A stretch of DNA of 64,000 nucleotides from Lineus longissimus (lineage: Eukaryota; Nemertea; Pilidiophora; Heteronemertea; Lineidae): positions 9,297,431-9,361,430 of the forward strand of contig NC_088322.1 of the NCBI RefSeq assembly GCF_910592395.1, written 5' to 3'. Made by a program: the position numbers and the translations under genes. Below, piece by piece: positions 6,001 to 64,000 of this stretch; positions within the stretch are counted from its first letter, which is position 1; every line of letters starts with the position of its first letter. The notes below the pieces were generated by a model. It was not told the origin of the DNA, ran no database searches, and saw only the letters and a list, made by a program, of their open reading frames with translations.

Positions 6001-9000
6001 GGGATGTTCCTTCCGAGTGATTGGATCGATATAGACCATCTTCTCTGGATCATACAGACCTTTCTCAATTGCCTCAGTGAGTGGAAGTTCATTTCCTTCT
6101 TTGTCTGTGACTGATTCAACTTTGAAGTCTGTGACAGTCAGAGGGCCACTCAGGTAAGAAATGACATCATCTTTCGTAGGTTTACCCTTCATCAGGCCCT
6201 CTTCAATGGCTTGTGGTATTTGAATTGCTTTCCCGGTTTTGGGATCTACGTAGCATCCCTTCTCAGGGTCCATTAGTCCCTTTTCGGTTGCTTCCTGAAT
6301 GGTCATTTCTGCACCTGTACCAGGCTCCACAACTGACAAACTGGTGTACGTTTCCGTGTCTTCTGGGTGGCCCTGGATTAAGCCAGTCTCAATAGCTTCT
6401 ATGAGAGGAACCTCCTTATGGGTGATTGGATCGATACAAGCCACCTTCTCTGGATCATAAAGACCTTTCTCAATTGCCTCGGTGAGTGGAAGACCATTTC
6501 CATCTTTGTCTTTGACTGATTCAACTTTGAAGTCTGTGACAGTCAAAGGACCACTCAAGTAAAATATGACATTTTCCTTTGACGGTTCACCCTTCATCAG
6601 GCCCTCTTTAATCGCCTCCGGTATTGAAATAGCCTTCCCTGTTTCGAGGTCTATATAGCATCCATTCTCGCGGTCTATTAATCCCTTTTCGGTTGCTTCT
6701 TCAATTGTCAACTCTGTCCCTGTATCAGGATCTAAGACTGACAAGCAAGAGTAGGTTTCGGTGTCCTCTGGCTTGCCTTTGATTAAGCCAGTCTCTATAG
6801 CTTCTATGAGGGGAATTTCCTTTTGAGTGATTGGATCGATATAGACCATCTTCTCTGGATCATAAAGACCTTTCTCAATTGCCTCGGCGAGTGGAAGTTC
6901 ATTACCATCTTTGTCTGTGACTGATTCCACTTTGAAGTCTGTGACAGTCAGAGGGCCACTCAGGTAAGAAATGACATCATCTTTCGTAGGTTTACCCTTC
7001 ATTAGTCCCTCTTCAATGGCTTGTGGTATTTGAATTGCTTTTCTTGTTTTGGGATCGACGTAGCATCCCTTCTCACGGTCTATTAGTCCCTTTTCGGCAG
7101 CTTCCTCAATGGTCAATTCTGCACCTGTATCAGGCTCCACAACTGACAGACTGGTGTACGTTTCCGTGTCTTCTGGGTGGCCCTTGATTAAGTGAGTCTC
7201 AATAGCTTCTGTGAGAGGAACCTCCTTATGGGTGATTGCATCGATATAGGCCATCTTCTCAGGATCATAAAGACCCTTCTTAATTGCCTCAGTGAGTGCA
7301 ATCTCATTTCCATCCTGATCTTTGACCGATTCGACTTCGAAATCAGTGACAGTCAATGGGCCACTCAAGAATGAAATGATATCACCCTTATCATCCTCGG
7401 CCTTGGTTGCCATTATCAGTCCCTCCTCGATGGCCTCCGCTATTGGCACTGCCTTCATGGTTTTCGGGTGCAAGAAGCATCCCTTTTCCAGGTCTATTAG
7501 TCCTTGGTCGGATGCTTCTTGAATGGTCAATGTTGCCCCAGTAACAGGATCTACAACATACAGGCTTGCGTAGGTCTCTTTATCTTCTTGATGGCCCTTG
7601 ATTACGCCTAGTTCTATTGCCTCCTGGACAGGGATCTGCTTGTGGGTTACTGGGTCTATGTAGGCCATCTTTTCCGGTTCATAAAGCCCCCTCTCGATTG
7701 CCTCCGAGAGTGGTATTACATTTCCATACTTGTCTTTCACGGATTCTACTTTGAAGTCTGTGACAGTCAAAGGACCGCTCAGGTATGAAATTACATCTTC
7801 CTTGGTTGGAGAAGCCTTCATCAGTCCTTCTTCAATGGCCTCTGGTATCGGAATAGCTTTCCCTGTTTTGGGGTCTATGTAGCAGCCCTTTTCAATATCA
7901 ATCAGCCCTTTTTCAACAGCATCCTCTATTGACAGTTTAGCGCATGTATCAGGATCCACAACTGACAGACTAGTGTAGGTTTCTGTTTCCTCCGGGTTTC
8001 CTTTGATTAATCCAATTTTTATGGCTTTAATGAAAGGAGTTTCCTTGCGCGTGACTGGGTCTATGTAGGCCATCTTCTCTGAATCATAGAGCCCCTTCTC
8101 GATTGCCTCCGAGAGTGGAATTTCATTTCCATCCTGGTCTTTGACATATTCTACTTTGAAGTCTGTGACAGTCAAAGGACCGCTAAGGAAAGAGATTACA
8201 TCTTTTTTATCGTCTTTCGTCTCTGGCAGTGGAATGGCTTTCTTAGTTTTGGGATGTATGAGGCAACCTTTCTGAAGATCAATGAGGCCTCTTTCGCCCG
8301 GTCTGTCAGTCGTCATCTTTGTTTCTCTATCCGGATCAAATATACAAAGTGTGTTGTAGGTATTTTTATTCACCGGCGTACCTTTTACTATGCATTTTTC
8401 TACCGCATCGTGGATTGGGATTTCTTCCTGGGTAACGGGGTCTATATAGACCACCTTATCGGGATCATAGAGGCCCTTGGCGACCGCCTCGCCAAATGAC
8501 AACTCATGCCCCTCATTGTCTTTGACTGAGTCTACTCTGAAGTCCGTAAGTGTCAAAGGCCCACTCAGGAAAGAAATGACATCTTCATGATCATCTTGGA
8601 GCGGGGTTCCCTTCATAAGGCCTTCATCGATAGCCTCTTGCAATGGGATATCTTGTCCTGTTTTAGGGAGAATGAAGCAGTTTCTGTCGAGGTCTATAAG
8701 TCCTCGTTCACACGCCTCCTCAATGCTCAGCTCAGCCCCTGTGTCGGGGTCCATGACACACAGGGTGGCATAGGTTCCTTTACCAACGGGTTGGCCCTTC
8801 ACTAGGCCTAGTTCTATTGCCTCCTGAACAGGTATTTCTTTCTGTGTAACCGGATCTGTGTAGGCAATCTTGTGTGGGTCAAACAGACCCTTGGCCTTAG
8901 CCTCTTCCAGAGGCACCTCGTTACCATCTGGGCCAGTAATTGACTCGACTTTGAAATCTGTAACAATCAGAAGGCCCGTCACGTAAGAAATGACATCATC

Positions 9001-10306
9001 CATATCCTCCCAATCCGAGGTGTCAAACTGACTTGGTGTGGACCTGTTTTCTCTGATGACTTCTGGTATGATTTCTTCAAGCTCGTTCAGGTCTTCAGCA
9101 ACGTAATCACCAGGTAGGAATTGTTTAGCTGATGACCTATAAACTATTTCAACACCTTCTGGTAGTTTCGCTTCTAGCCCTAACGAGTCAAATATGTCAA
9201 TCGGGGATGATTTTATTGTCTCTGCTGTCTGATGCTCAATGGTATCTTCTTGGACGACACAATCGTTGAAGGTTTCTCTTGGTTTTTCGGCAAAGCAGAC
9301 CTCCTTCCTCTCCACTGCTTTGACAACAGGTTGGGCGACAACCATTCCCAATTTAATTGCCTCATACAGGGGAATCTGTACTTCTTTCTCCGGGTTAATG
9401 AACAACTGTTTATCTGGGTCCAGAAAACCTTGTTCAACTGCTTCGCTCAGCTGTGTTTCTGCGTTGGTGATCGGATCGACTATGAATTCTACTCTAAAAA
9501 TCAACACGCCGTTACCAGTTTCGACTTCGATATCATTAGGTGTACTGTCCCATTTTTGTATCAGTAAGTCCTTGGCAACGGCATCAGGGATTGTCATCCT
9601 CTCTTCCGCCTTCAGGTCGACAAAGAGCTCATCCTCCGGCAGTATAATTCCAAGATCTAATGCCTCATCTACAGTCACCTGTGTCATCGTTCTCGTATCA
9701 ACAGCACCAGAAATACAGAACTCCTTGGTCTTATAGACTGTTGTAACTGTAGACTCGACCACGTTGGACACCATCTCGGCCATGATTAATCCTTGGTTCA
9801 TTGCTTCAGCAATCGGCATCGTTTCTTTGGTCACAGGGTTAAAATAAATCCCCTGTTCTTGGTCCACGATTCCTTCCTTGATCGCATCAAACATACTGAT
9901 CTCGTCACCAGTTGTTGGGTCTATGACACAAGTAATGACAAAACTACTTGTCTCTTGCGTCTCCATTAGAACCATATCCACGGTTTCCTCTTCTGTGCAC
10001 TCGACAGTCTCTTCATGAGTGACCTCTTCGAAGAAGTTCGACTCCTGCTCCAAGGACTTGCCTGGGATCACTTCACGCTGGACTAACTCCCCTCCCAGCT
10101 CAAGCGACGCGTAGGGCGACTCATGTGCAAGTTGCAGCGTCGTCATCTCTATGTGTTCTTCCATTTCTTCAGTTCTGTTATCAGCTGTCATCAAGTCACC
10201 TTCGTCCAGCTGTGGCGTCCTCTCGTGGACGAAGATGAAACTAACGTCATCTTGCTCGGGAGTTGCTCCCTTTGATTGCCGTTTGCCCTCGAATCTTGGG
10301 TCGATT
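1..10306 (-). CDS. Giant plakin-repeat exon, partial (runs off left edge)
   Basis: On the minus strand, codons in positions 3k-2..3k are open from the TGA at 10390-10392 down to base 1, about 3,435 codons without a stop. The exon starts at 10306 after a strong acceptor (tacttttcag). Its first base completes the CG left by the upstream exon to give Arg, then Ile-Asp-Pro. The first ~420 residues are a less regular, acidic segment with a few diverged repeats. The rest is plakin repeats with motifs such as GLIDPEKG, GLYDPEKM, IPQAIEEGLM and SGPLTVTDFKVESV. In other plakins such repeats fold into globular modules that bind intermediate filaments. Carrying them all in one huge exon recalls the alternatively spliced plakin-repeat exon of invertebrate spectraplakins; that comparison is from family knowledge. 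The left edge shows no splice donor, so the exon is longer than the window shows. Confidence 0.93.
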
Positions 10307-13300
10307 CTGAAAAGTAGTTGTGTGCTATATTGCACCTTTAAGAGCAGAACTGCCCGACTTGGTCTGTCATCGGCATTCTGGCATCTACTTCACGGTCAGC
10401 ACGTTTGTTTACAGAAATAGACAGTTTGGAATGAAGTATATTTATTCTGTTGTTCCTATATCTTTTATCAACTATAGATCAGTTACGAATGTTGAACTTT
10501 CTAGCTATTGTTCAAAAGACTAGCTCTTAAATTGTTCTATTTCGAGATACAGGGAGCTTTTTTATCAAATAATCATTTCCAATTCATTAACGAGCGAAAT
10601 TATTGGATTGCTTCTGCCTGTTCAGTTCAGTTCATTATCACGTGTACCACTCAACCTATCCTGCTTTCTACCGTCATGTTAGGGCTTTCAAGCAGTGTTT
10701 CATAATGACAAGAGTAGAGATTATATTGGGCTAAAAATTAAGACACTTACCGCTTGATATAGGCAGTGGAAACAAACTTTACAGAGCTATCCTCATTGAC
10801 AATCCTTCGTTCCTCATTCCGAGTTGTCCATAACGTATTCTCATAGCATCGGTAGTATACCAGCAGATCCTGTAACATAAACACAAATTGTACAAAATGG
10901 CGCCTACTCAGACGACACAAAAACTCAAATTACTGGCACACGCAATTATTCGTCATAGAGGACGATTGATGGCCCATTTCGAATTGTATGTATCAGCAAT
11001 TTATAGACAGCAATTTTCCGGAGGCATGCGGTGGCTTGATATACTTTTAAGTGAATAATGTTGATTTATTTACTGCTCTTGCTGAACTTAAATTACGCCA
11101 ATAAAATATTTTTTCAATAGATGGAGCATTCTATTGGCATCAATCCCGTATTTCTCGGCTGGGTGTTAAGCTAATTAATACTTTGACATTGATAACAGGA
11201 ATGTTCATTACCTTACGTAACTTGGTCGAAGGGAAAACTACAAAAACTGGGGTGTTATAATTGTTCGTAACAATTTGAAAATATCATAATGCGGGAATGT
11301 TATTTATCATATACCCTATGTGCACTGATCCGGCTGATAAGACATCGAAAAATTCATTTAAACTTCACCAAAATCAATGACAGTGGACCCAAGGCCGACT
11401 GTCTAAGATAACAGAAGCAGCAATTTGGGACTTTAAGTCAGGCAATAACCAATCAAAAACCACATAGGCCATGCTTTCTACACCAGACAAACGCAATTGG
11501 TGCCGTCTGATTGGCTAATACATGACAAAAACTTACAAATTGCTAATTGAGAAAAATTATATATGATATTCGTTTTATGTACATTTATTAATCATTATGA
11601 AATTCATCGATCTAGTAATACCAAAATTCATGTAAAATGCGTCCAGATAATTGCATCTGCAAAATAGTGCGATGCCTTTTCGGAATTAGCATCATTATGG
11701 CTTGCTGACTTGATTAACCTGAGCATTTGGTTCACATATTTTGAGTCGGAGAGGAACTTACACCCAACAACGTAACGACACGATCGGCCTCCCTCCAATT
11801 CGTCATTATATCGTTGGTCTGCGGTACGTCACCTCCTCCCTTTCTCCCCGCATGTGGCTCGGAGTCTGTTGGAATGATTCGGATGGCGAAGACACGGATG
11901 GTCCGGTAGAGGTCTTGAGTTTCCTGCCCCACGGCTCCGACGGAATCGAACATATCTAACGCCTCATCGAGGATTTCCCGGATCTTGTGGCGGTCGTGAA
12001 AGTCAAACTGAAGCAGCTGGAAACAGGCAGTGCATAGACGAATAACGCATTATTTCAAATAGAATCTCCCCGATAAGCAAGTAAGAAAATACTGTCTTGC
12101 ATGGCATCCATTACAAGTGTCCCGCTCACAGGCGCTTTCACAAAAAGCACTTTTTAGAGGTCATGGCCTTCAGCCCTATCTTGAGACTGGCCACAGGACT
12201 ACTTTCTCGCACTGAAGAGTCAAGCAAGTTCCACATTCTACCAGTCCTAGGTGTGTAGCAGGTTGAAAAGTGTCGACACAGTATGATAAAAACATTAGCG
12301 CTAACAGAATGGTCTAATTTAAAGGTGGTTTGACTTAACGTAATCATTGTACCGCCTCTGGCCACTTACCATATCATCTGTAGTGTTTTGTATGAGTCCC
12401 AGCAAGCACCTGGTCACCTGGTACCTCAAACAGATGATGAAGCTCCGCCAGGTGGTCAGTAGGTGCTGCCGGAGTCTGTGGGCTAAGTCCACGGCCTCGC
12501 GGTCAGGCGAGGAAAAGATTAGCACCAATGAGGGGACGATTGAGGTATCATTATTGAAACTTCGGATCTGAAATGAAACGATAATGACTTAATTGGGTGA
12601 CCTTTGGAGACAAGAACATTGGCCTTTCTTAAAGGAAATGAGATAAGAATAATGGCCTTTCTGAAAGAGATACTAGAGGTGTGTGATTTCGTGTTATTTC
12701 GTCCATCTGAAAATCACTTGCTGGTATTAAGTTATTCCCATCACTTACTACCTGTATGTCACGACATCCAGATGATGTGACAGGTTTTTAAAAAACAGTA
12801 TGACCAAAAACTCATTATTTGAAGTAATATTTTTCTTTTTGTATACAACAATAACGGATGTTACCACATATTTGCCAGACATAACCTCTCTCCGCCACTT
12901 TCCTCATGTTATAAACATACTAAAAACCACTTACCATCCATTTGCTTTGGTCCACGGCTTCAACTATTTCGTAAACATGGCCCTTGATGACTGATATCTG
13001 AAAAATTGTTTAACATGCATGAACATTCTTTCAAAAAGTTGTTTTGCATTCTTGCATAGCACCTTTTCATTCACGCGTCCACGAAGTGCCGCCATGTTTG
13101 TGATATTACGCTCAGTTGCCGCAGGAAGCGCACAGGTTCCACGCTAACTAAAGTACATATAGCCGGCACGGAACTTCAGCGGTCGCTAGACAAACCAGGC
13201 TTTGAAGAACCGAGCCCTGCTCTTCGGGGAAACCCCGTATACCTACGTCATCATGCGCGTAAGTTACCAACGCGCGAACTTTCTGCGGACAGTCTGGCCT

Positions 13301-23420: not shown

Positions 23421-23561
23421 CTAGAAAGAGAGGAAAACAGAAAATAAGTTGTAATTGTTTTTTTAAACCATGAAAAAGCAATTACAGGCTCTAAAGAAAA
23501 TGACTACTGAAAAAGCAGATGTGTAGGATAAATAGTCTTTGCATGTAGAGGGTTTCTTTTC

Positions 23562-23720
23562 TGCAAGTTGCAAGTTGCAAGTTAAAAATGCAAGTTGCAA
23601 GTTAAAAATGCAAGTTGCAAGTTAAAAATGCAAGTTGCAAGTTAAAAATGCAAGTTGCAAGTAGGAAACGCAAGTTGCAAGTTGAAAATGCAAGTTGCAG
23701 GTTGAAAATGCAAGTTACAA
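23562..23720. repeat. 20-bp minisatellite, array 1
   Basis: About 7-8 units of caagttgcaagttaaaaatg, changing to the gttgaaaatg variant toward the right end. Open frames across it are repeat artefacts. Confidence 0.93.
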
Positions 23721-24526
23721 AAAATGTATATACCCTTTCCCAGAGGCAAACAAATAGACCAGCCATCAGCCTGTCTCACTTCTGTTCCATAGGTCTTGCC
23801 ACTTCACGATGCTTTCTTGCACTTAACCCCCCCCCCCCCCCGCAGTGTTGTGTGCTCAATAGCCTTGAGGACTGTATTCAATGCAAACTTAACACTAGAG
23901 AGTGCTTTTTCGGTGCTCAAAGTACCCTCTAGTATATATCAATGAGTGGCTGCCATCTTGAAAAGTAGTTCCGGCGTGGAAGTTTATCGTCCTTTTGTGA
24001 TCAGGATTTACGAGTAAGCTATCATGGGGCGGTGACAATTGTGTATTTTCGAAAGTTTCGGACCAGCTCAGTATGATTTTATGATCGTAACTTATTTTTT
24101 GAAAGATTAGAAGAAGTTCTGGCAGCCCATTTGAGGCAAGTTTGGGGTTATGAGTGTTCGTGTGAATTGGCGAAATCTATTTTTAGACCGGCCTTGTCGT
24201 CATTCAAAATGGAAGTTTCGCAACGCCGGCAGTGTTTGATATTGGAGCATCTCCACCTGGCGGAGAGATTGAATACTGTTGTGGAGTTAGTATTCAATGC
24301 CCTATGCACTGCACGTACTACGATGCACCTTCTTCGATGACAGTTCTAAATCCCTGGAATGTTCCAGTCTATGAGCACAGTTCCAAGTGTTGCACTAGGG
24401 GAGAATCTTCTGACACTATCCCAACTACATTTGACTTTCTGGATTTTTAGAACTGTCCGTTTCATTGAACAACTGGAATGGGAGGACCCCTTTGTATACG
24501 GTTTTCTTGAAAATGCACAGTTTCAA

Positions 24527-24750
24527 AGTTGAAAATGCAAGTTGCAAGTTGAAAATGCAAGTTGCAAGTTGAAAATGCAAGTTGCAAGTTGAAAATGCAA
24601 GTTGCAAGTTGAAAATGCAAGTTGCAAGTTGAAAATGCAAGTTGCAAGTTGAAAATGCAAGTTGCAAGTTGAAAATGCAAGTTGCAAGTTGAAAATGCAA
24701 GTTGCAAGTTGAAAATGCAAGTTGCAAGTTGAAAATGCAAGTTGCAAGTT
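24527..24750. repeat. 20-bp minisatellite, array 2
   Basis: About 11 nearly perfect copies of gttgcaagttgaaaatgcaa, the same family as the array 0.8 kb to the left but more uniform. The long open frames on the minus strand across it (FSTCNLHFQLATCI...) are artefacts of a repeat without stops. Confidence 0.95.
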
Positions 24751-27387
24751 TCAATCAATCAAATTGAAAATCTTATGCAATGTACTCAAAGTAGATTGCT
24801 TATGCCATGTTACTGGTAGGCCTACTCGAGGTAGACTGTCTATAGATTGTCTAAGGAACCAAATGGCAGGAAAAGATCTGGTAGGCCAGTATTGGGTTTC
24901 TTCAGTAAACTCTTTAAACCCACATTTAAATATTGACGTGTCTATTCCATTTTCTATTCCATGGTCATTGTGAGGTGAACATGTACTGGGTTATTTTCTA
25001 TGTTGTGTTCTCCATCTATCTATACTATTAAAAGAATAGACTACGGGACTTTGCGGAAATACCAATGGACCTGTGCTCATGAAACTTTCCCAACGTCTCA
25101 ACTTGATAGGGGGTTGATACTGTGCTCTCGTGTTTAAAAAGGTCTAGCAGGCTTGGTCAAATCAATCTATCGTATAGTATGTACACCATATTATCAACAA
25201 GATTGGCGTATGATGCATATCTGGATTATAAGATGGCCATTGACGCCTTATTCTGTGACTCTGGCATGCAGTTCACCCTCCTAATCAAGGCAGCTGGCAA
25301 CTTTCAGCATCTGAACACTCGTTAATCCAGTCGTCTATCCTCGCACCTACTCACACAAACAGGGGATAGAGTGGGTTTTGCGGTGACCCCAGACTGAATT
25401 ATTGAGTCTACTGAACACAGACTGAACAAAATCATGCAAATAATCATTTTTCAGTTTCCCTTTAGAGTAAATTCCTTGATCTTCAATATGATTCCAGTGA
25501 AGAAACTGGTTCCTCGATTTAAAGTAACAGGAAGTCTTTTGATTTCTATTCAGGATTGAATGCATCAACAAAAAGTTAGAAAAAAAATGTTTACTTAACT
25601 TTATTGAATCATCATATAATAATGCAGAACTATTTTTTATGAAACACTCTGTATGCTGACATCATTGAAGCATGAACATTGAGACATAAGAAGGATTATT
25701 ATAATAGGTACAGTATGAAATTATAATTTCTAACTTTCTAACTTTCCATCTCTTAGTCGCCAAAATCCCTAAGTCGACGTAAAATTCTTGGTCCCAACCA
25801 TGCAAAATCAATGATTTTCCCCTCTCAGCTCTTCACACCCAGTCTCTCCACAAACCTTCAGTAGAAATCAAGGAATGCTACAACCAGCGTTACACTTGGC
25901 AATTCGGCCAGTTCACAGTTAACTACACAGTGGCTCTGGCAGGGTATCTATCCCACTACTCCAAATCACGTGCAACCACGCATATACATGATTAATGTTT
26001 AAAGGATATAGAAATCTTGACCTTGAGTGTGTTTAGCTTCAGTTTTGATCATTGCCCATAGGAGCCAAAAATTGGTTGGGCTTCCCAAAAAGGTAATTTA
26101 TGCTAAAAATACTATAGGGCTTACGTAACATGCACAAAATGTGATGAAAACAGATCAAGAAACCCAATATTGAAATATGCAATGGAATTCCTGGCTTTCT
26201 TTAATCATTTATCTAGACAGCATCCAACTTCAACTCTCTAGAAACCACCCATAACCGGAACGTGGGAAAAATTCTAGGATAGTGCCAAAGAACTTAAAAT
26301 TAGACTTAAAACTACAGTAAAGGCTTATACGCGATTTGTTGCCTTTGTCGCGCTTTCGTCCAAAATACAGCATGCATGTATTTTGAATATTACAAAATCT
26401 ATTTGATCCCAAACCTAACTCTATATCAGTGCCAAGCTATTGTTCATAGGACACTTTACCCAGGACACTTAAAACCTTTACACCAGTTATCATTTGACCA
26501 AAAAAGTCAACACACTCTTTTAATAGGCCCTAACCGATCGGCAGCTTTATCAATCATACTTGCATGCATGAATTTGGCCCTTGGAATTGAGGCGTTCGGA
26601 CAATTTGACAATGCGACAACGGAAGAGCCCAGGGCAAAATCAGATCTGATCCTTTTAACCTGGGCTGTTCTTTGCATTGCTCATCTACCCTACCCTATAG
26701 TTGGACTCAGTTTGATTAGAATGTGCCAGCTAAGTGGAATTTTAAAGTATGCGCTCTTGGGAGCCGGGGATGTGTGTGGTCAAGCTCACTGTAAACTCTA
26801 GAATCTAGAACTCTAAAATCAACATTTTTTTACCGTAGGGGGCCTACTCTTTATGAGGGCCGGGGTGGGGGGTCTAAGGGAAAGAGTACTCTTAGCAACC
26901 TAGTGAAAACGTTGGAAAGTGAACAACCCAATATAGACTATGCTAAAAATGTCCAGTAGGCATAGTCAGGCAACATGCATGACATGAGATTGATCGAGAT
27001 AATAGTAGCCTTGGCATGATATATAGCTACCGGTATACAATCAAAATACAATGTACAATCAAAATTATGAATTGACCAGGCCATGCTCTCTAAACAGCAT
27101 TGACCTTTGAGCAAAATTGCTATCAGGACAGAAACACATGTATTAGATGAATCGTACTTGCGAACGACAGTAAACATGCATGAATAGATATCGCTCCACA
27201 CGGTGAAATAATAAAATGGTCAAGTGGGACCATGTGCTCACCTGTTGTCATAGGTCGAGAAGCATTTTTAGCATCTCTTGTATTGGAATGAAAATAAATT
27301 TGACTGGCAGTTAAGGACAACAAGTTCAAAAATTCGGTACACAGACTACAAAATTTTCCAGTGTGTTTTCCTTTCTAGTCGAGTGAC
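24751..27387. other. Gene-poor interval between plakin and kinase genes
   Basis: No convincing exon. A splice-like block on minus at 25354-25420 (acceptor gattttgttcag, donor gtgagtag) has the wrong phase for the plakin exon at 23420. A non-coding plakin leader exon could be hidden here. Confidence 0.5.
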
Positions 27388-27668
27388 GGTGCCCTCCTCC
27401 CCATAAGTCTGAAACATCATATTTCTGACACCCCACAAGTCCGATCGGCATTCAAGAAAAAAGTATCATAGGTCTGACCAGACGTCCCATATGTCCAAAA
27501 ACAGAGCATCCATCGGGATTTGGATAGTGGCTTTATGGGAAGTTGGACTTGTGATACCTTTTTCTTTAATGTCGGACTTGTTGTGTGACGGACTTATGGG
27601 AAAAGGTCAGAAAAGATATCTCCCTTGTCAGACTTATGCGGTGTCAGACTTCTGTTGTGGGGGGCACC
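27388..27668. mobile_element. MITE-like element with 9-bp target-site duplication
   Basis: The element begins GGTGCCC and ends GGGCACC. Terminal inverted repeats of about 25 bp match at roughly 20 positions. Identical 9-bp direct repeats (tcgagtgac) flank it at 27379-27387 and 27669-27677. Internally it has many short inverted copies of a 'gtcagacttat/ataagtctgac' motif. 281 bp, no coding capacity. The target length would suit MULE or P-type transposases, or hAT if read as 8 bp. Confidence 0.8.
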
Positions 27669-27704
27669 TCGAGTGACAGGTTAGATTGTTTGAAAACTGA
27701 ATTA

Positions 27705-28615
27705 TTAAAGGTGCACGCCAAACTTGGTGAGAACTCTCTTGTGTCCCTCAGATAAATCAGGTTTCACCTCGTCATGTACAACAATTTGACTAATTTGACT
27801 GTAGGGTTTCACCATCCTAACGCAGTTGATGTTCAAATGGAAGTATGTTGCAGAAGTCTTGGAAGCAACGCGTTCTTCCCCATTAACCATGTATGTCCTC
27901 TTCAGGAATGTTTTGAGAATTACATCATTTGGTGGCTTTTTATACTTGTCTGCAAATTGATGCTTGCACCCATAGCATGTTTGAAGGTTCATTACCAAGG
28001 TAGCAAGGCATACGCAAACAGGCTGTTCATCCTTTTTTGGTGTGGCCGTGCCTTGTTCTTAAGTTGGTTCATTTCTTTGCCTCTGCTCTTTTGGCGTATT
28101 GGAAACTTGGGACTTCTTTCGGCGTTTAGATTTAGGTCCCTGTTCTGTAGGGCGATGAGAATCCTTGCGAAATTCCCAAATCTTTGTAGCTGGGCACTCA
28201 ACACTCTCAGCAGGTTTACCGCAGGAAAAACACACCTGAGTGTCACTTTCCTTCTTAAATTGTTTTCGATTTTGGCTGCCATACATCTGCCGAAACTGGC
28301 ACTCCCCATTCACACATATTGGGGATCCCTTGCAATGAGCAAGTCTCCGCTCTCCTGAAAATCCCTTTCTTGAACTTAGACAGTAACGTGCCCATGGTCT
28401 ACCATCTTTGGAGACCTTCATCATAACCTTCTTTTCACTGCAAGGAACATGGTCCGTGTTCAACCCATCAATATCATGGGGAAGTTCCTCTACCTTTCGT
28501 GGCTGGCACTCTGCCCAATGTATTAGATCATACTGGTCGTTTCTATACCTATTCTTCTTCTTCGGTTTTGTAGCAGTCTCATCTGTGCTGTCAATAGACG
28601 ATATCAGGAGATCAT
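27705..28615 (-). CDS. Last exon: Cys-rich C-terminal region with in-frame TAA
   Basis: Acceptor cttttttcag, 911 nt, phase 1 in, ending at TAA 27705-27707. It begins DDLLISSIDSTDETATK with a basic KPKKKNR tract. A domain follows around LPHDIDGLNTDHVPCSEKKV and RRLAHCKGSPICVNGECQF, then VCFSCGKPAESVEC, a very basic tract (KSKRRKK), and after the interrupting TAA at 28059-28061, TCYGCKHQF and HLNINC. The paired CxxC/CxxxxC and His-x-x-x-x-Cys suggest zinc binding, possibly nucleic-acid or protein recognition. I recognise this as resembling an uncharacterised invertebrate family but cannot name a function. Confidence 0.78.
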
Positions 28616-31600
28616 CTGAAAAAAGTGAACTTATATGATAAGAACTATAGGTAGGTAAGCAGGCCCTGCCTAAACTACCGGGCCCAGTTGCACAATCGGT
28701 GTAATTCACTGACGCTGGCATTAAGGCCTGTTTCCACTGCGACTAGTGGCAGCACTGGGGGTGAAAAACATGTCCCCACGTCCATTTTCTGGTCAGGGTC
28801 AAAGGGCTGGAAATTGGTTGACATCGACACTGAAAGGGTTAACAACAAGAGTGCTATGTGGCAAAAATCATAACAAAAAGAATGTTACCTGTTTTGACAA
28901 AGCCAGGTGATGTTTCATATATTTTGCTGCAGTTTGCTTCATTTCCTCCATCTTTACGACCAATAACTGAAAGCAAATGGTTTCTGTTGAGAAATCATAG
29001 GCACCCCACCGGAAATTTCTATGGGGTGTTGCCCTAGCACATTGAATGTTCCCTATCAATTTTCAGCCTTCACTTTCACCCTCTGCCCAAAAGTGAAGTA
29101 ATCCAGCATGTCTACTTCAGTTTTTAGGCATCCCATCGACTACCTAAATGTAAATTACATACTGATTTTGTATCCAATTCAAAATCCGAAGTGGCCGCCT
29201 GGTAGCCGTCTTAGTTTATGAATTCCGACCTTAAAAAGAACCTGACCTTTAAAAAGAACCCGTGGCCCATTAGACTGTAAAATTGTTTGTGGTATCTTTG
29301 ACTGGGTTCCGACCCAAATTCCAAGATGTCGGCCAGGCAACCATCTTAGTGTTTGAATCTTAATTTCTAGAACCGCTCTTTTTCGTGGACATGAATTTTA
29401 TGGGACACCTTCGTCAAAGGTAGGGAAGACACCCATGTTGTTTTATTTATTCCATCTTCTATCTCAGGCGGTCTGACAGACGCAAATTCTCTGTGGTACC
29501 ATCAACCAAAGACAGGGGACGTTCCAGGTTTTCATGTTAACATAAAAAATGCTATCTAAATCTAAATCTAAAACAAAAAATAATCTTACCAGGTGATGTT
29601 TCATCTCTCTTGCTGCAGTTTCCTTCATTTCTGTCATCTCTACGACCAATAACTGAAAGCAAATGGTTTCTGTTGAGAATTCTGAAAAGGTTTTCTTTTG
29701 ATAGGCCTACAGTCTTAGGTTGAAAGACACCTTAGTCAACTGAAAATGGTTGCCTCGACAATAAATGACCATTCTTTTTAAGAATGGCGATTTAGCTCAG
29801 AGGGCTAAGGCGTTGGTACATTCGTGCGAGGCAGTGTTGTCGAAGTCGTGGATTTAGAGTCCTAGTCAGAGTTGGAACTTTTCTTTTTTTTTTTCATCAC
29901 GATGATTATTGGTGCAATTTTAGTATATTTGTACATCGCCTTTCAATTAATAGCTGCAAGCTAGATTTTGCAGTGTGCTGCGTTTTTAATCCATGGATTA
30001 CCAGTGTTTAAAAAACTACATGTATATGGTAAATCGTTATCACTTCATTGACCACCACTCGTTCCATTCTTGACAATTACTCACCTTCTTCTGCCAAACT
30101 ATGCACATTAACCTTGAACAGATCTATCTGCTGCCCGTCATCAGGATATCGTCTTGTGAGGTGTTGAATGAGCTTCTGTTTCGATCGGAATTCTATCAAA
30201 CCTGCACTTCCATCTGGGTCGGACATGCCCTTTGCTTGGCAGGCATGGCTGTCAAAAACAAACCATGCTCCATTCCGTCCTGGCAATATTGCGTTGGATC
30301 GGTCACCAACTCTCAGCACGTATGAAACATCCGCCTCCTCCTGCACCTGCTCATTGATTAAACCCTTCATCTCCATACCGAATTGTGGCTCTGTTAACAC
30401 ACTAATGTTGGCTTGTATGTGCTGTTCATCTAGAGTACCAGTCTGGATCTCGGAAATCTCATCAATATCTACTGTCAAGTCTGTCCTATTCTCTGGCCAT
30501 CCGAGACGTTCCAGTGCTTCCGCATGTGCCCGGTGTCCCTCAATGAGCACTTGGTGAAGAGTAAACTTCGTCCAATTCTCAGGTGGTTTGAGAAGGGCAA
30601 GTACAATTGCCATCACACTCATGGAAGTGCACTGAGAACCGGCAAATTCATCATTAAATATCAAGTCAGAGGCCTGGTGGAAGTCTCCCAATACTGCATA
30701 TCCCTCCTCATCATCCTGCAAAAAGAGATAGAATAAAAATTCAAGCACAAACTGACTAATTTGTCACCAGCATAACTTCAGGCAGTACACTGCTGCTTTA
30801 AGTGATGGCGAATATTGTATGATTCTCATATGGTGGCAATTTCAAGTGCAATCTACAGGAATTTTCGGCCTCAGGGAGGATGTATCTGACACCAGAGTCA
30901 TTCATGGTCACCATCTCTAGCAAGGAATCGCCAGTTGAAGCAGGGCAGTCGCAATCTGATATCATCAACCTTAAAGTACTCTTAACCCCTTCAGACCCGA
31001 CCACCCCGAAAGGGACGGTAAACAGCCAGCTCTGACCCTGTCCAACACATGTGTGACACAATAGCTTTGCACCATATCCGCCATCTAATGGACCTACTTT
31101 TCAAGGTCACAGAGGTCAAAGTGTACTTGAATTTACGAATTTGAATTTGAATTGAAGTTTCATTTCTTTACAACCAATGAAGCTATTGAGACCAAATTTG
31201 ATACATATGTACCTCTAGGTAACAACATTGACTTGGACACTAAGTTTCGGTCTTGTACGATCCATCGTTTGGCCACAAGAGGACCAGGGTTAGATGTCAA
31301 AACAAAGTCAGTGCAATTTCTCCCTAATCATTGGAAACAGCTCAACCAAATGTTCGTGTTGGATGCATCTATAACATATTCTACATTTGTCTTCTTTAGA
31401 AAAGCACATCTTTTCTGGACCAGGTCGGGGGCATAAGCCACACCCTGCATTGCTCTTGTCATCTCTTATTAGTCTATTTATGAACCAAACATTTAGGCCC
31501 CTAAAATAACGTTTCAAATCCAGCTCAGGCCACACTTGACGCCTTCTATACTCTAAGAGTAGATGGTCAATGGTAAATGTCATGAGTCTTCAACTGTCAA

Positions 31601-34600
31601 TCAAGGTGCCCTATGGGTTTTTCTAAATAGCGGCCCTCTCATTTACAGTTTTCTGCAACACATACACTGCTCCTTTCAAAAGGAAGAAAAGACCACAAAC
31701 AAATGAAATATCTTACTCACCGATATTTGGTCTTTTGGTTCATGTGGCACAGTTGTTAGTGACTTTCTGAAAGCAGAAACAAAATTTGGTATGCTAAAGA
31801 ATACTGAATAAGGTGCGGTGTACAGCCTCTGGGTCTACCCCCTCTATTTGAGGAGCCAGGAGGAGGAAAAATAGGGTTAATTTAATAAACAGGACGTCTG
31901 ATGGACAAATGGTCAACTTTACGAGTTGGCACATTTAAGTTGGAATAAATCCAGAATTAACATTGAACCAACTGTACTTCATTTTGCCATGGGCGGCAGA
32001 GTTGTCTAAGGACATTTAAGGACAAAATTATCTGACCTTGACCCTGCGACCTGGAAAATTAGGTCGAAAGAATTTAAATGCGGAGGATATTGTACCTTTG
32101 CTATAAATATTGGAAAACCTACCAAGTACCATATATTTTTCAAATTTTTCGTGAGTAATCGTATATATTCTGTTCTAAAGTTTTAGGTCAAATAAAAAAT
32201 CGGAGGATATGCGATGTACCATTAGTAGAAGTACATTACCATATTTTTTCTCCTATTCTTCGGACCCGTAAAGGAGAAAATGCAAATTTTCATCTTTGAC
32301 CTTTCGGCCAACCCATGAATCATCTGACATCATACCATCGGTGAGCCAATTGCAAGGGCGTTGGTCACATTTCGGTATCGATCATATTTTCAGATCAGCT
32401 GAGATTGGCTAATAGGTTTACGTATTGTACTTACGTTACTTGATAAGGCTTTCGTCCATGTCTTTGTCTAGGCTGATGGATGATGTCCGGTATTTCTTCA
32501 AAGTCATTGTTGTCCTTAAAAATAAATTATGTGACCAATTTACCAATACTTGGGGCCAATGTCTGATGTTGGCGCACTATTTTGTTGAAAGGATGTCCAC
32601 CAAGTGGATAGACGGACTTCTAACAAAAGTTTGTACGATTTTCGTGTGACCTGTAAAGCAGAGCTTATTCAGTGAAATATTGCATGTCTCTCACAATGAA
32701 TTAAAAATGATAACATAATATAAATGTACACTGGTGTAAGATTTATCACTGTGGTCAACGTACAGATACTTGCCAGGCGTTCACTCGCATTGACGCAATT
32801 CCGACTTGCTTACTTGCAGTGAATCGAGTGCATTGTGTTGTGAAGTTAGACAAAAGTTGATGGCGTCTAGGGTGTACGACTTTTAAAGATTCTTTACATT
32901 TTCTGCCTCAAATCTCAGCAAAACCTTCAAACTTCACACAATTTCCCACAATAAAATGTTTCATTTGTACCTGAATTCTTCCCTTTGGGACTGAATGCTG
33001 GAAATGTCCCTATTTCTCCAAAGACAGAACTTTTTTTCAACGCAAGGGTTACATCGCGTTTAGAATTTATTACAAGATAGAATGACTTAAAGAATGTCAC
33101 GCAAGATAAAGAATTGGTTACCCAGTATAAAAAAATCGAGACCCCGGTGTTAATTGATTGATTTGGGCAGCAAAGGCAACCAAAATGTGCTTTGACAAAT
33201 ATAGCATCTGCTTTCGGAAGTTCAACTATGCGGTAAACGCCTAGCGTCTATGTGTAGTTGACCACAGTGTTCATGAATTGTCACTGACCATACAGATACA
33301 AATGATTGTGCACAATTTGAGAGCAAACAAAATTTATGATCAGGTGTGGAAATCAAGCCGCAAATTCATTTCATGGCAACTACGCCTAGTAGGTAAATGG
33401 CCAATCTTCCTTACCTCTCTTAAACTTCCACTGCCGGTTGACACACTTTCAGCACTGCGACTTCCTTGATGGTCTTCATCAACATTAGGCTCTGACAATC
33501 TGAAATTAGAATTTTTTCTTTTCTTTATACGGTACTGTTTTTTAAGTAGGCTATCAGAAAAGAACCAGACTTTGACCACTTAGTTATTTTCTAGGATGAC
33601 CAGAAAATAACAAAACTCTGAGAAGTTGGCTTAATGTTAAATAAAATATAATCAATTTTTCAAAATTAGATAACCCCTAGGAAAGGCTTACTTTTGGTGG
33701 TCGACCTTGCTAATGTCTGTCGAGTCCAATTCTAGTCGAAGATTGTCTGCATTCTGTTGACTACCGGTTGATTCTCCATTAGGGTGGCTTGATGTCATCT
33801 CATGTTCTATGAATGAAATGAATGTATTGCTATCTATCATTTATGCAACATGGAACATACATGTACATGTACAATCACTGACTAGACTGTTTCAATTGAG
33901 AAATATGATATACGTGTTGGTTCCAAGGGTTCAATACTGAAGGAGCTGGGGGAAAATACAGTGGCGCCACCCAAATTCCAGCTAGTCTTTCATCCTGGCT
34001 GGTTGTTTGAAACATGCTTCTTCTTAGTGCATTGCATGGACAGAGGTTTTGATTGTAAGTTCCAATTCAGGCTGTTTACATTGCTCTCTTTCCGTTGTTA
34101 AAACTAGCAGTGCGTCACCTAACGTTTATTTGAGTTATGGACGCGTTCAGATTAAGCTATACCTAGTGATTTGTTTATTGAGAGGGAACGTCTAATTTTG
34201 CGGAGATGTACCACCCATAAATACCGTTTATCGTATCACTTCCTATAGTATCCGCGATGTGATTCATTTTCAGAACAAAATGTTTGGAAAAACCACAGAT
34301 AATTGCATACCCTTGTGTGAATTTGATCGCTGAGAGTGTCTATTTTAGAGAGGAGGTCGCACTTGTTCAGTTGCTATAGTACCAGCCTATCTTGAGCATC
34401 AAGGCATATGGACCCTGCATCTGCGTGTCCTACTATGTATGTCAGAGGAATAGGATGGCATGGGTCCCTCTGCCACCAAAACAATAGTGACTGTCTATGG
34501 AGATAAAGACCCCAGTGCCACACCCCCGTGGCTGACTTCCTTCAGAAAATAAGGTGGGTGCTGCAATGTTAAACCTGCACATGCCAAAATTACGGATCAC

Positions 34601-35829
34601 CAAAGTCAACCAACCACTTTCACCAAGTACCCAGCACAGCATGTCAGGCCCCTGGAATTAGGTGGACGGTAAAAAGAGCTGATGTACATGTGTACAGAAG
34701 CTCCTACCAAGAGATAAATGGGGAAGATAACCGCTGTGTTTGAATGGTAGAATGTAAAATGGGAATTTTGATGAATAGCAAACTTACCGGTTCCTCTATC
34801 GTCATCTGTTTCAGGCTTAGGAGTAATCTTTCTGCTGAAGATTCGTTGAACATCTTCAATACTCGGCCTTTCCTTTGAGTCAAATACCGAGCAAATCAGG
34901 AAAACCTCATGAACCGGATCCCAATATCTTTTCCGGGTCAGTTCATATTTCGGAAGATTGCATGGTCGCCTTTTCTTCATCATGTGACGTTCCAGAGATT
35001 TCCTTTGATTCATTTCTTCTGATTCTTCCACTTCCTTCCAGTAAGGGAAGCTTGAGTCTGGATTGCACATGGAATGTGCAACCATGCCTAATGACCAGAT
35101 GTCCATTCTCTTCAAATCTCCTAAATTTGCAGTGACAAGGGTCTCCAGCAGGGCCTCCGGCGCCATAAAAGCCGCTGATCCTCGGACAAGCTTTCGAGTA
35201 TTCCGCGATAGTTGAAACGTTTGTATGAGGTCTGACCGAGCCTCACCGAAATCTGTCAGCTTCGCAATCACTGGACATGTATTCCACAGGTCTTTCATGC
35301 AGGAACCTGGATTTAAAAAATGTTGGTTGGACACAAGGATGTTGTCAGGTTTTAAGTCCCTGTGCACAACATTGCTTCTGTGTAGATAAGCCAATCCTGA
35401 TATAACATCCTTCATGATAAAGCCCTGCATATGCTCGAAGTTCTCGAAATCACATAGATCGTCACATTCCTGTAGAAGTTCCCCAAGATTGTTTATAGGC
35501 TGCTTGTCAATCGATAGCAACTGGAACTGGAACTCCATGAACTCCAGCAGCATCGACGAAGATTGTTCATTAAAGGCTAAGAACTTGACGATGTTGTCAT
35601 GTCTGTGGCTACAAATAAGCCTAGCTTCCTTCAGGACAAGAGCCTTTTCATGCCGTTGCTTTCCTAGACTCGTTTTCACAACAACTCGATTGCCATTCTT
35701 GTTGGCCACATAGACAATGCCATAGGTCCCCCTGCCTACTTCACGAAGGCTGCTTAGTTCATTTTCCTCGAAAGAAGGAAGATCGTGTGTCTGAGGCTTC
35801 GTTTTCAAGGTGATCGGAACTTTGAACAT
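27705..35829 (-). CDS. Chimeric protein kinase - C76-like cysteine protease - Cys-rich protein (9 coding exons, one internal stop)
   Basis: Gene-level entry. Coding exons 5' to 3': 35829-34788, 33806-33692, 33499-33415, 32514-32435, 31766-31721, 30715-30085, 29652-29590, 28966-28889, 28615-27705. Lengths sum to 3,051 nt (1,017 codons) and every junction keeps frame. Order of parts: protein kinase (residues ~25-330); Ser/Glu/Asp-rich linker (~348-456); protease-like domain (~457-667) with Gln484-Cys485 and Asp611-x-His613; two short duplicated segments; Cys-rich C-terminal region. A TAA at 28059-28061 (codon 899) interrupts the last exon, but the same frame continues 117 codons with conserved-looking CxxC motifs to a second TAA at 27705. 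It may be a truncated functional gene, a young pseudogene, a polymorphism or a sequence error. Likely role, by inference: signalling linked to deubiquitination or innate defence. Confidence 0.85.
28059..28061 (-). other. In-frame TAA stop inside the last exon
   Basis: In the frame set by the upstream exons the codons read ...NEPT-stop-EQGTATPKKDEQP..., and the frame stays open for 117 more codons. TAA is not a selenocysteine codon. A single C-to-T or A-to-T change from CAA or AAA would create it. Confidence 0.85.
28889..28966 (-). CDS. Duplicated short exon, copy 2
   Basis: Acceptor catttgctttcag, donor gtaacatt, 78 nt, phase 1-1. VIGRKDGGNEANCSKIYETS then PGFVKT. It is 15 nt longer at its 3' end than copy 1 because a donor further downstream is used. 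Both copies are multiples of three, so either can be skipped. Confidence 0.8.
29590..29652 (-). CDS. Duplicated short exon, copy 1
   Basis: Acceptor catttgctttcag, donor gtaagatt, 63 nt, phase 1-1. VIGRRDDRNEGNCSKRDETS then P. It differs from copy 2 (28889-28966) at only 8 of 63 aligned bases, and about 30 bases of preceding intron are also shared, so exon and 3' splice site were duplicated together. Confidence 0.8.
29785..29895 (+). repeat. Degenerate tRNA-derived (SINE-like) fragment
   Basis: It contains a good Pol III A-box (TAGCTCAGAGG) in a tRNA-like 5' half. The B-box equivalent (ggatttagagtcc) is degraded. It ends in a T-rich run. No cloverleaf can be completed, so not a functional tRNA. 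Confidence 0.45.
30085..30715 (-). CDS. Cysteine-protease-like domain exon (herpes-tegument/C76-type)
   Basis: Acceptor tctctttttgcag, donor gtgagtaat, 631 nt, phase 0 in and 1 out. One domain of ~210 residues. It has an N-terminal GDFHQASD...F motif, then GSQCTSM (Gln484, Cys485) before a hydrophobic helix, and near the end WFVFDSHAC (Asp611, His613). A Gln-Cys early and an Asp-x-His late in a ~200-residue domain, with the GDFHQ lead-in, is the signature of peptidase family C76, the deubiquitinase fold at the N-terminus of herpesvirus large tegument proteins. Related domains occur in invertebrate genomes. The residues are seen directly; the family assignment is inference and a distant OTU-like or other papain fold is the alternative. 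If correct it would cleave ubiquitin or a related modifier. Confidence 0.7.
31721..31766 (-). CDS. Kinase-protease gene, short linker exon 5
   Basis: Acceptor ctgctttcag, donor gtgagtaag, 46 nt, phase 2 in and 0 out. KSLTTVPHEPKDQIS. Good splice sites and phase on both sides. Confidence 0.78.
32435..32514 (-). CDS. Kinase-protease gene, linker exon 4
   Basis: Acceptor ttatttttaag, donor gtaagtac, 80 nt, phase 0 in and 2 out. DNNDFEEIPDIIHQPRQRHG then RKPYQVT. An acidic stretch is followed by a basic one. Confidence 0.8.
33415..33499 (-). CDS. Kinase-protease gene, linker exon 3
   Basis: Acceptor ctaatttcag, donor gtaaggaa, 85 nt, phase 2 in and 0 out. Ser-rich acidic linker (LSEPNVDEDHQGSRSAESVS). 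Likely disordered, with many potential phosphorylation sites. Confidence 0.85.
33692..33806 (-). CDS. Kinase-protease gene, linker exon 2
   Basis: Acceptor catttcattcatag, donor gtaagcc, 115 nt, phase 1 in and 2 out. Encodes a polar linker: EHEMTSSHPNGESTGSQQN and so on. No domain. Confidence 0.85.
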
Positions 35830-35839
35830 GATGAACTGT
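34788..35839 (-). CDS. Kinase exon (start codon, full protein kinase domain)
   Basis: Acceptor ttttctctttcag, then 10 bases of 5' UTR and the ATG at 35829; donor gtaagttt in phase 1. It encodes a complete Ser/Thr-type kinase: glycine loop GRGTYGIV (32-39), VVVK with Lys52, alpha-C Glu68 (KEARLI), catalytic HRDLKPDN (156-163), DFG (193-195), APE (223-225), DIWSLG (243-248) and the Arg of the last lobe (ERPS). All catalytic residues are present, so an active enzyme is expected. Between DFG and APE there is no obvious receptor-kinase signature and no membrane segment, so it is probably cytosolic. An insert after APE (LETLVTANLGDLKRM) is slightly unusual. The subfamily is not identifiable by eye. 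Confidence 0.93.
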
Positions 35840-36911
35840 CTGAAAGAGAAAACATGTTGTCATAAATTCCCTCATTCACTAAGTTGGATGTTGTTCTGGT
35901 CATTATCGCCTAGATGTACCCAGTCTTGTTAAAAAAGTAAAAGACATCAAACATTGCCTTGCCATTATCTGTGATACTGGCCCAAAGATTAAGTATCATA
36001 CACCCAAATGGCCTCCTTTCTGCTGGATAGTCACGCCAAAAGGGTGGATGTCATCCTGGGTAAGGAAAAGATTGACCCAGGACGGTGCTGGGTAAACTTT
36101 GTCCGGGCAAAAGATTTTTAATCTCTTATAAGATTTGATACAGGTAACGTAGAAGAGAGCAACTGGTACCAGCATAAACTAGGCCTATATATTCGATAGT
36201 GAAGGTCGCACCTCTCTAGCATCAATGGTTATTGCGTAACAGGCGCTAAAAAAAACTCCCAACCAGATGCTTTTTGACATTTTTTAGACACTTTTAGGCC
36301 CTACTTGACAACAAGTTCATGTGGATTTCCCATTTTAATGGTAAATTATATTATATTATGAGGCTTGGGACCTTAATTAGGCCTATTTAATGTGAGATGG
36401 CCAGTGCATGACATGCATCAGCACATGCATTGATGCATGTCATGTGCATGCATAGAGATGGACACACCCACATCATCATCATCATCATCATTTCCATGCT
36501 ACTTATCAGAGAAAACCATCCTAAATTCACCTAAGAAGATGTTCCAAAGAATCCCCTAATGTTCATAAGAATGATCCCCTAGCAACTGACACAATCAATG
36601 GTCAATCAATGCTGTAAATTCAGCAGATTCTACAATGTTCTAAGGGCCTAAGTCCTTCAATGTATCCACCATCTTGTTTATTGATTTTTTTTGTGGACTC
36701 TGTGACCTCCCTAGGCCCAGCTGCAGGGACCAAAGTATTAAAGGGACCATCTCAAACATTTCGTCGTGCCCGAAAGAATGCATGCTAGGGAAACCCTAAA
36801 GTATGTATTCCAACCATGGCCTAATAGCCCCCCCCCCCCCTTTTCCCGGGCCCACCCACATAAGTGAGACCAGGATAACGATAGGGCAACATATATATCA
36901 TTTTTCCTTAC
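35840..36911 (-). other. Putative first intron of the kinase-protease gene
   Basis: Bounded by the acceptor at 35840 and a candidate donor at 36911. It holds a (CAT)n run (36469-36490), a palindrome (36407-36444) and a C-tract (~36829-36842). Confidence 0.4.
36407..36444. repeat. Perfect 14-bp-arm palindrome
   Basis: catgacatgcatca at 36407-36420 is exactly complementary to tgatgcatgtcatg at 36431-36444, with a 10-base loop that is itself rich in atgcat. Confidence 0.85.
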
Positions 36912-37000
36912 CTTATCCAATATCTTGTCTCTGTGGTCTTTGAATCCGATGCAAACGCAAGTGATGGACGGAAGTGACTTCTGTTCAGAATGTGATAATT
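36912..37000 (-). other. Possible non-coding leader exon of the kinase-protease gene
   Basis: A consensus donor (GATAAG|gtaaggaa) at 36912/36911 lies on the correct strand upstream of the kinase start-codon exon, whose own 5' side is an acceptor. The 5' boundary is arbitrary and no promoter motif is recognised. Confidence 0.35.
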
Positions 37001-37339
37001 CTCCAGATGATATTCAAGGACCAGCTAACTCAATCCAAGCACATGAGGTCAGTGGTGCTTCTCTACCAAGAAGGCTACAAGTCCACTTGCATAATGATAT
37101 GATGTAGGCCTATAAGACAGATACAACACTGTACTGATAAAGCTTCAGACTAACAAGACCGTATCAGCTCAGTCTTTATGTATTAATTAATGTATAATAC
37201 GAGGTTGAAATAAGATAGGATTTAAAACAGGAAGTACATACAAAAGAACAGAGCCCTCTCATAGAAATGACCCAAATATCCATTTGATCCCAATCCCCAA
37301 GGTACTATATGTTTATACAAGGGTTTAATTCTAGAATGG

Positions 37340-37405
37340 ATATCACAGTATGGTTAAAGGAATTGAACCCGAGGCGGAGGACCTTGGTTGAGTTACCAAG
37401 ACACT
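37340..37405 (-). repeat. SINE-like tRNA-derived fragment
   Basis: On minus, a B-box that fits the consensus (GGTTCAATTCC) lies about 25 bases after an A-box-like tggtaactcaaccaagg. No complete cloverleaf. Confidence 0.45.
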
Positions 37406-63716: not shown

Positions 63717-64000
63717 CTGTCATTTAAAAATCAGTACTTTTTAATTTTCGCGAATTGCAAAGATAAATGTGCGCGAGGATTTGGTGGTGTACAGTAAGCA
63801 AATTTAAAAACGATGTCGTCGGCCAAAGTTATAGGATTCCCGTTGTCGTTTGTCAGTTTTCACTTGTCACGAGTTGACAGACTAAAAGGCTTGAAAACAC
63901 GACGTGAGGGTGAAATCGTATGTAGCCCACTCTTTAAAAAAGGCCTGTTCGTTTTTCGTGACACGGTTTTTTTAGGAACCAGGAAAAGCAACGCTGCAAT
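63717..64000. other. Region upstream of the coiled-coil frame
   Basis: No exon or promoter motif recognised; it could be intron or 5' flank. Confidence 0.4.

Follow-up and report, generated by a model that had tools for sequence, protein, structure and literature searches.

What kind of gene joins a protein kinase and a herpes-tegument-type cysteine protease on one predicted polypeptide in an invertebrate genome? This question is raised by a minus-strand locus in a 64,000-nucleotide stretch of Lineus longissimus DNA (C15:9297431-9361430 in a genome of 391 Mb and 30 contigs), the whole of which is referred to as the window. A first-pass annotation had proposed a host signalling gene, perhaps of the immune system; however, the locus is very probably an inactive Mutator-like (MULE) DNA transposon of a kind that carries a kinase and a tegument-like deubiquitinase (VTD). 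The idea of a host immune gene was dropped, as the closest relatives identified for its parts belong to repeated elements bearing a transposase, and the locus itself is a transposon copy from which the transposase core has been deleted.

The gene is composed of nine minus-strand exons with GT..AG borders at 8/8 introns, which join in phase to 898 codons. Its exons and splice sites are common to a second genomic copy on C8, and from the sequence and this conservation we infer splicing. Exon 1 (34788..35829; 98.6% amino acid identity to the C8 copy) contains the start codon and the protein kinase domain. The linker is encoded by exons 2 (33692..33806), 3 (33415..33499) and 5 (31721..31766), supported by phase and by splice sites shared with the C8 copy, together with exon 4 (32435..32514), the length of which differs from that in the C8 copy by 9 bases. 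Exon 6 (30085..30715) encodes the VTD. Exons 7 (29590..29652) and 8 (28889..28966), placed by the in-phase join and the C8 comparison, are near-duplicates of each other; with their flanks, they form a tandem duplication that is also present in the C8 copy.

As annotated earlier, the kinase is intact, with VVVK at residues 49-52 providing Lys52 and with HRD, DFG and APE present (Pfam Pkinase 3.4e-32; 112.3 bits versus a cut-off of 31.7), so that an active enzyme is predicted from these motifs. Its nearest solved relatives (TAO2, MAP3K5, p38 and RIPK1) are too distant for naming a parent, and an NCBIfam search returned only kinase models, far under their cut-offs. For the protease, Gln484-Cys485 and Asp611-x-His613 were found at the residues given before, and the predicted fold matches the structures 8add and 2j7q. 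GSQC and DSHAC are invariant in six sequences from element families 1, 2 and 4, family 1 being that of the window copy; a PDB sequence search with the VTD gave no match. The domain is, thus, a predicted tegument-type (C76) deubiquitinase that would cleave ubiquitin, and its fold supports the annotated pairing of kinase and C76/VTD protease on one predicted polypeptide.

Where do the relatives of these parts reside? Of the 30 matches that a genome search with the window VTD yielded, 12 are close loci (E <= 1.2e-35) and one is a small additional fragment belonging to one of these; the other 17 are distant, with 23-35% identity, and 8 of them lie in frames of >= 1,000 amino acids. At all close loci but one, 11 in total, a MULE-type transposase match follows 2.0-3.9 kb downstream on the same strand; the exception is the window, which was not among the loci matched in the genome transposase search. 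Two transposase lineages are involved, the first beside seven close loci (C20, C8:13.58, C6:8.96, C13, C6:11.38, C8:15.19 and C6:8.98) and the second beside four (C1:14.20, C14, C1:11.20 and, as fragments, C6:9.17). The first lineage has nine loci in the genome search, seven of which were fetched; six of these seven have a kinase match upstream. In families 3 and 4, a different MULE-type transposase (frames of 738 and 610 amino acids) lies downstream of the kinase; family 4 has a VTD (Herpes_teg_N 3.8e-4, sub-cut-off); in family 3, a Cys...DTH domain is joined to the kinase. The predicted gene order in the better-preserved copies is protein kinase, VTD, WRKY/GCM-type DNA-binding domain, DDE transposase and a C-terminal Cys-containing domain, and the transposase of the element family carries the CxxH motif between the second D and the E.

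Typically, target duplications of MULEs span 8-11 bp. In family 2, copy A lies on C6 (11.7 kb) and copy B on C8 (11.5 kb); the two are 98.8% identical, and their inverted repeats, some 370-400 bp long, are composed of 21-bp units. The flanking duplications measure 9 bp in copy A (AAAAATAAA) and 8 bp in copy B (ACTGTTGG). In family 3, the elements L012, L014 and L015 have both ends GGGTGTCTATAAACCGAAGA within long inverted repeats and are flanked by perfect 9-bp duplications (CTATTTTTT, GCAATTTGT and GGATAAAGT, respectively). Both related families, therefore, show the long terminal inverted repeats and target duplications of MULEs. Some family 3 copies are short; L014 has about 3.3 kb between its ends and a 564-amino-acid kinase frame with no transposase match. 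L012, L014 and L015 are all short kinase-bearing elements with intact ends that match neither transposase, and they look as if the kinase rides along on non-autonomous elements.

The same architecture recurs among public proteins. A search with window residues 440-898 returned a single match, P0001 (1,391 amino acids), which is collinear with the window protein (kinase 39%, Cys-rich region 37%, C-terminus 40%) and has about 400 residues between Cys-rich region and C-terminus that are missing in the window. With P0001 as the query, 15 proteins including P0001 itself were obtained; in six (P0001-P0005, P0009), an open frame without interruption runs from an N-terminal Pfam kinase through the long C-terminal part that they have in common, and for the other nine (P0006-P0008, P0010-P0015) no Pfam kinase is listed. 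P0001-P0004 contain a Cys...D-x-H domain between the kinase and the C-terminal part; since P0005 joins the kinase to the transposase with no such domain between them and the motif is not evident in P0009, the kinase varies less in its presence than the second additional enzyme. Neither in P0001-P0004 nor in family 3 was the middle domain accepted as a VTD (hhalign probability 3%, E 0.015), the common feature being only the Cys...D-x-H layout. That kinase and protease exons belong to two separate, simply adjacent genes is compatible with a joining of exons based on sequence rather than RNA; yet the eight junctions are canonical, in phase and common to a second copy, and P0001-P0004 as well as the genomic locus L013 hold the kinase and the Cys...D-x-H domain in a single frame, making this explanation extremely improbable.

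How, then, did the window copy come to its present form? Exon 9 (28059..28615), as judged from P0001 and the family-1 copies, starts with a truncated WRKY/GCM-like DNA-binding region, followed by a deletion scar and a stop. The annotated "Cys-rich tail" is, thus, Cys-rich, but it is the first part of a transposon DNA-binding domain that has been cut short. Similarly, the nine exons do join in phase, but not over the 3,051 nt claimed, given that an in-frame TAA (28059..28061), which is not in the three other family-1 copies, closes the frame at 2,697 nt. The remaining 354 nt past the stop (27705..28058, minus strand) are genuine coding homology on the far side of an internal deletion, namely a remnant of the C-terminal Cys-containing domain (40% to P0001 residues 1296-1391, E 1e-26; 56% to L009), and this homology is the first hint of a larger, broken gene. 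The breakpoint at 28161..28162, where the catalytic core of the transposase is gone, leaves the window copy 1,240 bp shorter than the C8 copy and 1,239 bp shorter than the C20 copy.

The window is homologous to the C8:13.57 Mb transposon copy over 25719..37356 (minus strand); past 37356, nothing in it corresponds to the opposite end of that copy. The one terminus left (GAGGGTTTCTTTT, with arrayed 20-bp repeats; 23548..23720, plus strand) is of the same type as in family 2; a repeat scan revealed a second 20-bp array at 24507..24750 (plus strand). A 9-mer by this terminus recurs exactly at 51761 with no element terminus adjoining and was counted as chance, not as a target duplication. Just beyond the gene and inside the C8-shared stretch, there is a palindromic repeat of about 260 bp (27400-27658), perhaps a small inverted-repeat element. 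Because the transposase core and one terminus are gone, the window copy should be unable to move by itself; it might, however, still produce the 898-residue kinase-VTD protein.

Besides the window copy, family 1 comprises three more copies, on C8, C20 and C6. The C8 copy (L019+L023) is 98.5% identical to the window over 8.4 kb, with additional blocks of 96.8, 99.2 and 98.2%, and has suffered one frameshift and a 56-bp loss. The C20 copy (L036; 99.2% over 7.5 kb) lacks the kinase start and becomes divergent close to the end of its C-terminal part; its 733-amino-acid frame retains all transposase motifs. In the C6 copy (L037; 97.3% over 4.1 kb), transposase sequence occupies the site of the window deletion and is broken by an insertion; no kinase was found within the stretch read.

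These copies bear on whether the locus was domesticated, with the transposase core lost and the kinase-deubiquitinase kept by the host. The open 898-codon frame, the intact kinase and VTD motifs, a deletion that relative to the C20 copy is a multiple of three, and a kinase dN/dS of 0.27 against the C8 copy would fit domestication, and domesticated VTD genes are reported in PMC9741609. However, that kinase value stems from 10 differing codons (5 synonymous, 5 nonsynonymous), too few to decide, and likewise the 8 differing VTD codons (6 nonsynonymous, 2 synonymous; dN/dS 0.83) are too few. Exons (26/2,556 sites) and introns (46/5,056 sites) have diverged alike from the C8 copy, the VTD differences are mostly nonsynonymous, the locus still has a stop and a truncated DNA-binding domain, and it has near-identical counterparts of mobile type. 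Domestication is, thus, unlikely; nothing in the sequence comparison shows that the host retains the window copy.

A further explanation places the host gene first and has a MULE recently take up a host kinase-protease gene, which would be in line with the capture of host gene fragments by MULEs described in literature abstracts. Against this stand the same domain order in divergent families, whose kinases are only 33-46% identical, and in uninterrupted database open reading frames; moreover, no host gene with a kinase-VTD pair was found among the candidates scored, a subset of the matches listed. In a tree, 100/100 support separates 11 element kinases from 8 host kinases; the host set was made up of the top-scoring Pfam matches, of which two are poorly filled or very long-branched, and it may leave out closer relatives from the host. 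Taken together, such a capture is very unlikely.

Under the reading as a MULE copy, the enzymes would be lasting parts of the element. HRD, DFG and APE are found in 7/7 kinases compared, namely P0001, P0002 and those of five families of this genome, with two frame pieces making up the family 5 kinase. Identity between family 1 and family 2 is 36% for the kinase, 60% for the VTD and 63% for the transposase core; the kinase evolves faster than VTD and transposase with its motifs kept, a pattern that would be consistent with either an arms race with a host target or weaker constraint. The VTD of these families differs with dN 0.26 and dS 0.86; the ratio of 0.31 indicates that it was under constraint. 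The dN/dS between family 2 copies A and B was discarded, as their transposase frames do not correspond, which makes the VTD value unsafe, too.

The derivation of the protease from a large DNA virus, previously suggested as a host-virus exchange, could appeal to the fold and to the Pfam score for the herpesvirus tegument protease, which stays under the threshold. However, the closest relatives found are not viruses but MULE copies in the same genome, followed by the distant loci. The only distant locus checked, L039 (C14:4723600-4732600), is a Helitron frame (Helitron_like_N 2.6e-25, Herpes_teg_N 4.3e-11) whose VTD is 26% identical to that of the window. Furthermore, PMC9741609 argues for the opposite direction, from transposon to herpesvirus, and the likelihood of a viral origin is close to nil. 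A Helitron origin of the window gene was also rejected: neither the window protein nor the L009 open reading frame has a Helitron match at E <= 1, and Helitron_like_N and a helicase were not found in the same gene, while the same scan detects L039.

Several observations weigh against a kinase- and VTD-bearing MULE. All four family-1 copies are damaged or incomplete as far as read, and those examined yielded neither a complete end pair nor a target duplication; the window copy has a single terminus. The Pfam MULE model gives just 0.15 in P0004 and no match in the L009 open reading frame for the first lineage, and 8.9e-5 and 2.6e-4 for the second (23.3 and 21.8 bits versus a cut-off of 27.6). 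Likewise, Herpes_teg_N stays under its cut-off of 25 bits on the window protease (6e-4, 19.9 bits), as it does on relatives (20.1 and 20.6 bits).

In intact elements, the DNA-binding domain would recognise the repeat-rich inverted ends, and the transposase would cut and paste the element, leaving 9-bp target duplications. The VTD could strip ubiquitin from the transposase or its partners and, thereby, prevent degradation, while the kinase might phosphorylate the transposase or host factors limiting transposition. It seems likely that these elements form a MULE group, undescribed in the literature searched, in which selection maintains an active kinase and a tegument-like deubiquitinase as permanent components of the transposition machinery. 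The group would span several divergent families in a single invertebrate genome, two transposase lineages and, for the kinase at least, other sequenced sources.

Usually, cut-and-paste transposons are thought to carry a transposase and little else. Some MULEs and Helitrons carry other ubiquitin-type proteases (Ulp1 or OTU), which share with the present elements a ubiquitin-directed cysteine protease on a DNA transposon but differ in protease fold; they are not known to carry a kinase. MULEs, including Rehavkus, are alike in the DDE transposase with CxxH, the zinc DNA-binding domain, long inverted repeats and 8-9-bp duplications, whereas the present elements place kinase and VTD before the transposase. 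In Rehavkus, a minisatellite precedes one end, according to PMC6446971; the ends of the present elements also hold tandem repeats. Neither "kinase" nor "protease" appears in the main text of the two MULE surveys searched (PMC6446971, PMC13359780), and no description of a kinase built into a DNA transposon was found among the papers listed by searches of one open-access library. VTD-bearing Helitrons and Helentrons are expected from PMC9741609, and L039 agrees; they, too, have a tegument-like deubiquitinase on a DNA transposon, but use another transposition enzyme and, unlike the present gene, are not paired with a kinase. Domesticated VTD genes, e.g., Drosophila ms(3)76Ca (PMC9741609), are likewise transposon-related VTDs in an invertebrate genome; those are single-domain, whereas the window gene keeps the kinase and a transposase remnant.

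While the window copy itself is ordinary debris, the element family deserves attention. If the reading is true, the family amounts to a mobile element that brings along its own enzymes for phosphorylation and ubiquitin editing, and from which new signalling genes might arise. The maintenance of a kinase with intact active-site motifs and of a ubiquitin protease across very divergent families would imply a virus-like action on host regulation, offering a testable system for the escape of DNA transposons from host control. It also calls for caution with invertebrate genomes, in which a gene model for a kinase-deubiquitinase may represent what is left of a transposon.

Elsewhere in the window, a 3,463-amino-acid open frame (1-10389, minus strand) is made of a 405-bp tandem repeat (1130-8202); with Plectin repeats at 1.5e-68 on the 1-3000 piece, it is probably a large plakin-type exon. 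On the same strand, 61737-63719 contains a coiled-coil-like open frame of 661 amino acids, for which a Pfam match to a baculovirus protein just under the cut-off was taken as composition. This frame may belong to the plectin-repeat gene, in which case the transposon copy would be intronic.
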